Shown: positions 28,726 through 30,409 of the stretch, in pieces | How the letters are laid out: every line of letters starts with the position of its first letter | How positions within the stretch are numbered: the stretch's first letter is position 1 | Assembly (NCBI RefSeq): GCF_900104685.1 | Contig: NZ_LT629755.1 | Location: 310,001-374,000, forward strand | DNA from: Agromyces flavus | Lineage (GTDB): Bacteria; Actinomycetota; Actinomycetes; Actinomycetales; Microbacteriaceae | DNA: 64,000 bases | Reading direction: 5' to 3' | The notes under the pieces: generated by a model | Databases searched by the model: none | What the model saw: only the letters and a program-made list of their open reading frames with translations | What the model was told of the DNA's origin: nothing | Position numbers and translations under genes: made by a program

Positions 28726-29049
28726 TGGTGCCCCCAGAGAGACTCGAACTCTCGACCCACGGATTAACTTGCTGCACTGAGTTTCCCCAGCCACCGCTGC
28801 GCGGCTTGCAGTCTGGACTATATCTTCACCTTCGGCCGAGCCGGTCAGGTGCGCCGCGTGTAGTCTCTGAGGTTCCCTTGCGGTTACCTGCTGATTGCCC
28901 AATCCCTCGGATTGTCACTGCCCACGGGCGAGTACCTCGGGCTCTCAGGGTGTCCCAGCATATAGCGGCGGTCATCCAACGCATTTCGGCGCTGGCGCTC
29001 CATCTGTTCTGTTGAAGTCCGTTGCTCTAACCAACTGAGCTATAGGGGC
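28726..29049 (-). tRNA. tRNA-Lys (anticodon UUU), split by a group I intron
   Basis: On the minus strand, exon 1 (29049-29015) begins GCCCCTATAGCTCAGTTGG and ends in the anticodon loop; exon 2 (28767-28726) begins TTAATCCGTGGGTC and ends in an encoded CCA. Joined, they give a complete 77-nt cloverleaf: 7-bp acceptor stem (one wobble), D stem GCTC/GAGC, anticodon stem ACGGA/TCCGT with loop CTTTTAA, T stem GAGAG/CTCTC. The anticodon is TTT. A 247-nt insert lies between anticodon positions 34 and 35. TAGGGT (29056-29061, minus strand) ends 6 nt before the tRNA 5' end and is a plausible -10. An ordinary tRNA search would miss or misread it. Confidence 0.93.
28768..29014 (-). ncRNA. Group I self-splicing intron (IC3-like) in the tRNA-Lys anticodon
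   Basis: Core elements appear in the right order on the minus strand: a P-like segment GGGCAATCAGCAGG, the R-like CTCAGAGACTACACG and the S-like AAGATATAGTCC. GACTA in R pairs with TAGTC in S to make P7, the guanosine site; CACCT and AGGTG flank P8. Exon 1 ends in T and the intron ends in G, as the class requires. P1 can form as CUU|CA with UGGAG, putting the expected U-G pair at the 5' splice site. The intron has no internal ORF. The layout resembles the cyanobacterial tRNA-Leu and Azoarcus tRNA-Ile introns. Confidence 0.92.
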
Positions 29050-29176
29050 GTGACCACCCTAGCAGCCCGCTTCTGCGCCGCCGCGCCCGACGTTCGAACC
29101 ACCGAAACAGCTCCTCCTCGCGGAGTGGAATTGTCGCCGGCAGGCCGTACGTTGGGCTCGATCGAACGGAGGCCGC

Positions 29177-29641
29177 GTGAAGACGTGTTCGACCTGCCGG
29201 CGCGTACTCGCATTATCGGAGTTCAACATGCGCGCGAGATCGCCGGACGGGCGCCAATCGGTGTGCCGTGCCTGCAACGCAGCTCGGGCGCGGCGCTACT
29301 ACGCCGAGAACCTCGAGAAGCATCGCAAGGCGGTCGCATCCCAGGTGGCGAAGACGCGGGCTGCGCACCTCGAGCTGATCGGGGAGTACCTGCTCAGCCA
29401 TCCTTGCGTCGACTGCGGGGAGGGCGACATCCGCGTGCTCGACTTCGACCATCGCCAAGGCGAAGACAAGTCGGCGGAAGTCATGAAGCTCGCGAAGGCG
29501 GCGTACTCGTGGCAGCGGGTGGCCGACGAGATCGCCAAGTGCGATGTCCGTTGCCGGAACTGCCACGCAATCGTCACGTACGAGCGTATGGGCGCCAACT
29601 GGCGCTCGGGCGTCTTTCTCCGTACTGCTTCGACAACGTGA
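29177..29641 (+). CDS. Zinc-finger/HNH endonuclease-like protein
   Basis: 154 residues. An N-terminal four-cysteine knuckle (CSTC and CRAC) is followed by a helical basic stretch and an HNH-type core: HPCVDCGEGDIRVLDFDHR, then CDVRCRNCHAIVTYER. The metal cysteines and catalytic DH are present, so activity is plausible. ACGGAGG ends 4 nt before the GTG. It lies 127 bp from the intron-bearing tRNA, transcribed away from it. Free-standing HNH proteins of this type occur widely in actinobacteria and phages; a role in intron homing is only a hypothesis. Its codon use seems a little less GC-rich than neighbours. Confidence 0.8.
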   Translation: MKTCSTCRRVLALSEFNMRARSPDGRQSVCRACNAARARRYYAENLEKHRKAVASQVAKTRAAHLELIGEYLLSHPCVDCGEGDIRVLDFDHRQGEDKSAEVMKLAKAAYSWQRVADEIAKCDVRCRNCHAIVTYERMGANWRSGVFLRTASTT

Positions 29642-29770
29642 TCGTGGTTCCGCATCGTCGTGGGATTCGTCGGAACCATCGCGCTGGGTCGTGCCTGAAC
29701 CCGTGTTCCGGAGTCCGCCGAGCGCGGAATCCGGCTTGGCTCGTTGGCCGGCGGGGTATCGTGGCCCGCG

Positions 29771-30409
29771 ATGACCGCAGACTTCCACCGGCCCACGCGA
29801 TTCCCTCCGACGATGTTCGAGGGGTTCCTGGGCGCCCAAGACCCGGCGCAGGTGAGCCGCGTCGCGCACGACACCGCCGCGGCGGTCCTCTCGCGCGTGC
29901 GCGCAGATCCCGACCCCGAGATCGTGGCGCGACTGGTGTCGTACACCGACGAGCACGGCATCGACGCGATCGCCGAGCTGTGGTCGCAGGCGTCGCCCAA
30001 GAGCCTGCCGGGCGCGCTCTGGCGGATCTACCTGCTGCGCACCATGATCCGCCAGGATGCCGCGGGCGTGAGCCTCGCCTTCCAGCGCGGTACCGAGGTA
30101 TCCCGCACGATCGACCAGGTCGTCGCGGGCGCCCCCACGCCGGCCGGACCCGCCGAGGTTCGCGAGCTCGCCGACGTCATCCTGCGCGGCGTGTTCGCGG
30201 GCGACTTCGCCGCCGCCCTCGAGCGCGCGGCCGCGTTCTGCCGCGTCGCGTCGACGGGCTTCGCGAGCCTCGCCGACGATGCGGATGCGGCCGACGCGGC
30301 GCACCCCGATCGACCCGGCATGCTCACCCGCCGGGCGCTCCGGCTCTCCTCGCTCGGCGAGGAGCTCGCCGCCTGCGCGCGGCTCTGGCGCCACGAGAGC
30401 CTCGACTGA
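29771..30409 (+). CDS. Conserved-looking protein of unknown function
   Basis: 212 residues, not recognised. Soluble and mostly helical, with an even mix of acidic and basic residues and no signal peptide or membrane segment. Visible blocks are VARLVSYTDEHGIDAIAELW, SLPGALWRIYLLRTMIRQD and a C-terminal LSSLGEELAACARLWRHESLD. There is an alanine/aspartate-rich linker near residue 180. Codon use and third-position GC fit a real gene. The ATG is the first methionine of the conserved-looking part; no clear ribosome site is present. Confidence 0.6.
   Translation: MTADFHRPTRFPPTMFEGFLGAQDPAQVSRVAHDTAAAVLSRVRADPDPEIVARLVSYTDEHGIDAIAELWSQASPKSLPGALWRIYLLRTMIRQDAAGVSLAFQRGTEVSRTIDQVVAGAPTPAGPAEVRELADVILRGVFAGDFAAALERAAAFCRVASTGFASLADDADAADAAHPDRPGMLTRRALRLSSLGEELAACARLWRHESLD

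Follow-up and report, generated by a model that had tools for sequence, protein, structure and literature searches.

A predicted group I intron in the sole tRNA-Lys(UUU) gene detected in Agromyces flavus, and the probable exchange of tRNA-Lys alleles at a fixed chromosomal place

The only tRNA-Lys(UUU) gene that we find in the genome of Agromyces flavus is very likely split by a group I ribozyme of the kind known from bacterial tRNA genes, with the alleles of this gene exchanged as a small block of DNA. The gene lies on the minus strand at positions 28726-29049 of the window (the whole stretch of DNA that was analysed, 64,000 nucleotides long) and is interrupted in its anticodon, between U34 and U35. 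Its 5′ exon (29015..29049, minus strand; 35 nt) ends in GGACUU at nt 34, and its 3′ exon (28726..28767, minus strand; 42 nt) begins with UUAAUCC at nt 35 and has an encoded CCA at its end. The exons are separated by an insert of 247 nt (28768..29014, minus strand), in which no ORF of its own was recognised. Two ORFs on the plus strand accompany the gene: a divergent HNH-endonuclease ORF of 154 aa that belongs to the phage family phrog_2255 (29177..29641), and a neighbouring ORF to which no function is assigned and which we use as a landmark of the locus (29744..30409). A TAGGGT-like stretch (29050-29066, minus strand) is found about 10 nt upstream of the 5′ exon, with varied copies in split loci, and may be the -10 element of the tRNA-Lys gene.

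When joined, the exons form a tRNA-Lys(ttt) of 77 bases with a complete cloverleaf and one G.U pair in the acceptor stem (ARAGORN), so the original prediction of a lysine tRNA with the anticodon UUU holds, with exact coordinates. ARAGORN run with its intron option reports a tRNA-Lys(ttt) carrying a 247-nt insert at the locus, and run without this option calls no gene there. An intron-free relative in the genus (genome G005) has, across the predicted junction, exactly the sequence of the joined exons. The 3.69-Mb genome, assembled in one contig with a completeness of 100, contains 44 tRNAs (RF00005), and their anticodons (RF00005, ARAGORN) include one for lysine, CUU, and no second tRNA-Lys(UUU). 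As no tRNA-Lys(UUU) gene besides the split one was found, the reading of AAA would hinge on splicing, as had been proposed; this proposal needs to be qualified, because AAA is very rare. None of the 60 lysine codons of rpoB is AAA (AAG, 60), nor is any of the 28 in five ORFs of the window (AAG, 28), and the load on splicing is accordingly light. Throughout the 59 Agromyces genomes that could be typed, each has one tRNA-Lys(UUU) allele, either split or intact.

The insert is most likely a group I intron, whose splicing is predicted from its structure. The Rfam covariance model Intron_gpI (RF00028) matches positions 28802-29024 (minus strand) over the whole model, with 55.9 bits at a gathering score of 50 (E 2.1e-13). 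This score is only 6 bits above the cut-off, and the match is the sole one to RF00028 in the 3.69-Mb genome. A guide sequence GAG (28998..29000, minus strand) pairs with CUU at the 5′ splice site, forming P1, and the intron alignment places the two strands of P7 at 28861..28865 (GACUA, 5′ strand) and 28816..28820 (UAGUC, 3′ strand), both on the minus strand. The U.G pair at the 5′ splice site and the G as last intron base were read directly in the A. flavus sequence.

A pair model drawn on the A. flavus intron itself contains 58 pairs in 15 helices. Fifteen Agromyces introns (own included; 247-256 nt) align at a mean column identity of 88%, and all 58 pairs form in each of them, with two-sided changes in nine pairs. 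For four of five pairing measures the observed values were reached by none of 500 shuffles, with slid controls pairing in 27.6-44.5% of cells; the fifth, a count of further pair types, was not above shuffles (202/500). The core helices P3-P8, with the P3/P7 pseudoknot, pair in all cells in 15/15 introns, but P3, P4, P6 and P7 are invariant, so that covariation supports only P2, P9 and the extensions of P5 and P8. Together with the covariance match and the intron-free allele of G005, this covariation upholds the placement of a 247-nt group I insert between positions 34 and 35. In 24 further introns of tRNA-Lys the border U and G were built into the search pattern, so that there only the guide, which reads GGAGCG in 25/25 Lys introns compared, is an independent result. 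P10 is weak: among the first six bases of the 3′ exon in A. flavus, nt 1 and 5 alone could pair with the guide, which gives one contiguous pair (up to three in some sister introns). Bacterial tRNA introns of subgroup IC3 are characterized by an IC3 core and GNRA loops L2 and L9; in the intron alignment, read without a subgroup model, the P2 loop contains GAAA, and L9 contains GAAA or GAGA.

From this structure, the following splicing pathway is the most likely. The split precursor would be transcribed, and the intron guide GAG would pair with the CUU end of the 5′ exon, leaving U.G at the cut. With a guanosine bound in P7, the intron would then excise itself, and CUU would be joined to UUAA, resulting in a normal lysine tRNA that would read the rare AAA codons.

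Split genes of this type recur in the genus. A search of 100 relatives with RF00028 gave 13 matches, all among the 60 Agromyces genomes (own included) and none among the other 40, and a joined-exon search added two split genes (G018 and G024) that RF00028 had missed under strict filters. In total, 15/60 Agromyces genomes have a split gene, all interrupted at the same place, 41 have an intact gene by the exact pattern, three have an intact variant, and in one (G013, 840 contigs) neither a split nor an intact tRNA-Lys(UUU) allele was seen. By these tests, none of the 60 genomes holds a split and an intact allele together. To look further afield, a covariance model (R1) was built from 10 of the introns. 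It matches 50 of 396 genomes in a phylum sample at E<=0.001, where the own genome is the only one from its class, and 13 of 299 genomes in another class, that of G196, at 1e-8. Closer to home, it matches three of 299 sampled genomes of the own family at E<=1e-6 (own included), and two of 212 of the own class at 1e-6, being the own genome and one with 23S motifs. Reading of the exons places an intron at the same position of tRNA-Lys(UUU) in two other genera of the Microbacteriaceae (G832 and G847) and in eight genomes from the class of G196, six belonging to family f58 and two to family f93. A protein encoded beside one of the latter introns (L212) is identical to one of Conexibacter sp. SYSU D00693; the class is therefore probably Thermoleophilia, and one of the eight genomes probably a Conexibacter. 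Where the original prediction named no actinobacterial tRNA-Lys with such an intron, we find it in 15 Agromyces genomes and 10 others.

In a tree of 59 aligned intron cores, the 25 Lys introns form one side of a branch against 34 others with a support of 80/97, although the bootstrap had not settled and support for one group is not strong. Among the best 32 other loci of a longer match list, 24 have 23S motifs, four have 16S motifs, and four have neither. Introns beside 23S or 16S motifs (L213-L226, L228-L230, L232-L234, L236, L238, L239, L246-L250, L275) are widespread in actinobacterial genomes, almost all of them from classes other than the own one, and some genomes have several rRNA-adjacent group I introns within a few kb. 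One of the four loci without motifs (L235), from another actinobacterial lineage, has a group I intron in a tRNA-fMet gene, as judged by eye. The phage records contain no match to the intron. Plasmid matches to the locus, in four Sinorhizobium records, were rejected, as they cover only the last 41 bases, which are 3′ exon.

The same site is also used by a different group I intron. In another genus of the family (G1000; L273, minus strand, about 2062-2356), an insert of 220 nt splits tRNA-Lys(UUU) at the same point. R1 did not report it at 1e-6, and with RF00028 it stays below the gathering score, at 35.5 bits (E 2.4e-6). At both ends its bases resemble those of the Agromyces intron, and its core reads differently by eye.

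In Agromyces, the split gene is one of at least five tRNA-Lys(UUU) alleles, defined by sequence: A in 23 genomes, B (the split allele) in 15, D in 15, E in three and C in two. A further type, a B-like allele without intron, is that of G005. The intron-free alleles mostly differ along the whole tRNA, and the exons of A and B, compared with each other, score 61/76 positions. D-type genes (L096, L099, L100, L102, L104, L105, L108, L110, L112, L117, L119, L123, L127, L128, L130) have a short D loop, and 14 of the 15, which ARAGORN misses, lack the usual TTCGA in their T loop. In each of its 15 genomes, the D-type gene is the sole match to the intact tRNA-Lys(UUU) pattern, and D-like tRNA-Lys genes also occur in other genera (L255 and L272). 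The three E-type genes (L120, L121, L122) have an unusual anticodon stem.

These alleles have replaced one another at a fixed place, in all likelihood by recombination, as judged from alignments of the loci. Upstream of the tRNA, 47/59 loci have a homologue of the landmark ORF (A 22/23, B 10/15, D 12/15, E 3/3, others 0/3), and none was found in the other 12 within the 1.5-3 kb examined. Ten locus pairs were compared by pairwise blastn. Between a B locus and an A locus (G053 and G034), an identity of ~90% extends until 592 and 20 nt upstream of the respective tRNAs and resumes 9 and 25 nt downstream, with no alignment between. The A locus shows the same edges against a D locus (G057), with one 42-nt match inside the tRNA, and the B locus has, in common with this D locus, a 195-nt HNH stretch of 77% identity as well. 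For another B and D pair (G024 and G003), the upstream match extends through the HNH gene; for a second B and A pair (G014 and G027), parts of the tRNA align too; two B pairs align throughout; and G059 and G043 gave no alignment. These edges indicate that the difference in several close pairs is a segment containing the tRNA, in some cases together with the HNH gene.

The distribution of the alleles was also compared with a tree of a single gene, rpoB, that covers 59 genomes, 58 of them typed (G051 is absent, as it gave no rpoB match). On this tree, allele B needs 10 changes for its 15 rows (shuffled mean 13.4; 5/500 shuffles as low), D needs 12 for 15 rows (mean 13.4; 108/500), A needs 10 (mean 17.9; 0/500), and all types together need 24 (mean 31.2; 0/200). 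The alleles are scattered over the tree, which speaks for exchange, although the split allele is somewhat clustered and its scatter is not random.

What might drive such an exchange? One candidate is the HNH gene beside the tRNA. Its product would cut other tRNA-Lys(UUU) alleles, after which repair would copy the HNH gene along with its own tRNA allele; the linked allele would be immune, either through the intron that lies within the site (collaborative homing) or through a recoded tRNA body (intronless homing). We consider homing of this kind a real possibility, though one with less than an even chance of being correct. The ORF matches phrog_2255 (E 2.1e-35), while Pfam gave no family for it at E<=0.001 and NCBIfam no match above the cut-off; 24 columns are invariant in 33 sequences of its relatives. 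The position of the gene speaks for homing, as an HNH gene lies upstream of the tRNA in 10/15 split loci (one partial) and 14/15 D loci against 4/23 A loci (Fisher p 6.7e-6 for B and D against A, 0.005 for B against A). Among the remaining types it is found upstream in one of three E loci, as a 37-aa remnant, and in none of the three C and B-like loci; in one C genome (G054) it lies downstream of the tRNA. Against this, tree-independent pairs on the rpoB tree, with HNH counted as present only if its match exceeds 130 aa, give no link for the split allele alone (median p 1), a borderline result for B or D (0.07), and some support for D (0.03).

In an HNH tree of 28 rows (which omits the 37-aa remnant of G004 and keeps the 84-aa partial of G011), the gene follows tRNA type overall, with six changes for all labels against 11.8 when shuffled, and the same holds for D (two against 9.6) and in part for B (five against 8.4), but not for A (four against 3.9). 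The HNH genes of B alleles fall into two groups, one shared with A and one near D, which argues against homing. Further points in its favour are that the edges of exchange enclose HNH and tRNA, and that the gene keeps to tRNAs elsewhere. Outside Agromyces, a family search (249 genomes, 1e-15) gave 10 matches in eight genomes and an order search (213 genomes, 1e-12) three matches in three genomes, and all 13 of these matches, in 11 genomes, adjoin a tRNA gene: tRNA-Lys(UUU) in four cases and tRNA-Arg(UCU) in nine, two of which share one tRNA. The orientation of HNH to tRNA varies, and the weakest match (L274) is ~240 nt from its tRNA. Two of the matches (L272 and L255) adjoin the D-like tRNA-Lys genes, and an HNH relative lies ~120 nt from the split tRNA-Lys of G1000, so that the gene is again adjacent where a different intron uses the same site. 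In other genera of the family, relatives are seen ~0-240 nt from tRNA-Arg(UCU) (L257-L264, L274), with a tandem pair in L258.

Other observations speak against homing. Four A alleles coexist with HNH, and in at least one case (G025) the tRNA has the same sequence as an A tRNA that lacks HNH; 5/15 split loci have no HNH within the upstream stretch examined; and the HNH structure model (pLDDT 94.5) found nothing in a fold search of the PDB at E<=0.001, with a Gme HNH chain at E 2.2. In sum, HNH-driven homing fits the block edges, the adjacency to tRNAs and the fact that two different introns occupy the same site, whereas the A alleles with HNH, the five split loci without it and the null result of the B pair test count against its simple form. 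More speculatively, a tRNA-adjacent HNH family, akin to HNHs of phage tRNA clusters, might drive the replacement of chromosomal tRNAs in the Microbacteriaceae: it would cut tRNA-Lys(UUU), and elsewhere tRNA-Arg(UCU), to be replaced by the linked intron-split or recoded, phage-like tRNA, and would thus act as a natural gene drive. We offer this idea tentatively.

Alternatively, the tRNA-Lys alleles may derive from phage integration or recombination, with the HNH gene as a passenger from a phage tRNA cluster, which we regard as conceivable but rather unlikely. The D-type tRNA is 88% identical to the tRNA-Lys of Microbacterium phage Pumpernickel, and the joined B exons are 88% identical to that of Gordonia phage BrutonGaster, where the tRNA lies near an integrase gene. 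HNH relatives occur in 138 phage records (all below 60% identity), and in phage JimJam one sits between two tRNA-Pro genes. On the other hand, the intron matches no phage record, the blocks exchanged in the locus pairs that were compared span less than 1 kb, and the likeness of the B exons is unspecific, since they match 1401 phage records. The integrase gene of BrutonGaster is of the tyrosine type (its tRNA-Lys(UUU) is at L268), and its proximity hints at a possible further role of tRNA-Lys as an attachment site.

An ancient intron with many losses would account for the presence of related introns, forming a single set, at the same site in two classes, for the intron-free B-like allele of G005, which resembles a clean loss, and for the partial clustering on the rpoB tree. 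It is unlikely in view of the rarity of the intron in the sampled family, of the differences along the whole tRNA in most intron-free alleles, and of difference edges that enclose the tRNA and often HNH too. That the split gene is a dead tRNA, with AAA read in another way, is highly improbable: AAA is rare and standard callers see no gene, but in 15 split genes the exons are intact and the intron remains paired, and no other UUU tRNA was found, each typed genome having its one allele.

We therefore favour the view that a group I intron interrupts this tRNA-Lys(UUU) gene, which is passed on as one allele among several. The introns would constitute one related set at this tRNA-Lys site in at least two classes of Actinomycetota, and in Agromyces a small block containing the tRNA, in some cases along with the divergent HNH gene, would have recombined at a fixed place. 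Our literature searches gave no report of such a predicted self-splicing intron from this tRNA or from these bacterial classes, and the gene that carries it escapes the usual tRNA callers. Moreover, a single chromosomal tRNA locus has at least five exchanged alleles and is accompanied by an endonuclease family that is adjacent to tRNAs in all 13 cases outside Agromyces. The spread of tRNA introns and tRNA genes between bacteria thereby becomes testable, with purified enzyme and the natural alleles.

Among the literature matches listed, which are open-licence publications represented in part, none describes a full-length group I intron within the tRNA-Lys of a bacterium, and the open-licence literature likewise gave no report of a group I intron in Agromyces; given this scope and the partial listings, the negative is weak evidence of absence. 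The authors of tRNAscan-SE 2.0 state that detecting introns of this kind, in fMet and Ile2 genes, lay outside the design of their program (PMC8450103). Another study claims 'group I introns' of 22-49 nt in cyanobacterial tRNA-Lys, -Gly and -Arg (PMC5733544). These resemble the present case in having a claimed insert in the anticodon loop of tRNA-Lys, and differ from it in that the insert here has a full core; we judged them too short for a core and rejected them as relatives. Collaborative and intronless homing, in which an ORF-less group I intron lies near a free-standing endonuclease within an exchanged tract, is described in two papers, where SegB of phage T4 is listed with a tRNA intergenic target (PMC3984707, PMC2988022). 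The examples given there are phage genes, whereas the tRNA here is chromosomal and single-copy, and its cleavage putative.

There is a close likeness to the bacterial tRNA introns of tRNA-Leu(UAA), -fMet, -Ile(CAU) and -Arg(CCU), which share with the A. flavus intron a group I core, small size, the lack of an ORF, a place in the anticodon loop, a U before the 5′ splice site and a terminal intron G. The tRNA-Leu(UAA) intron, too, interrupts its gene between nt 34 and 35. In cyanobacteria, as Rudi et al. are said to have reported in 2002, the whole tRNA-Leu(UAA) locus has recombined together with its intron, and the present case differs from that one in its tRNA, which is tRNA-Lys here. Unlike the bacterial tRNA introns named above, the intron described here has tRNA-Lys(UUU) as its host, in the Actinomycetes and in a second actinobacterial class.
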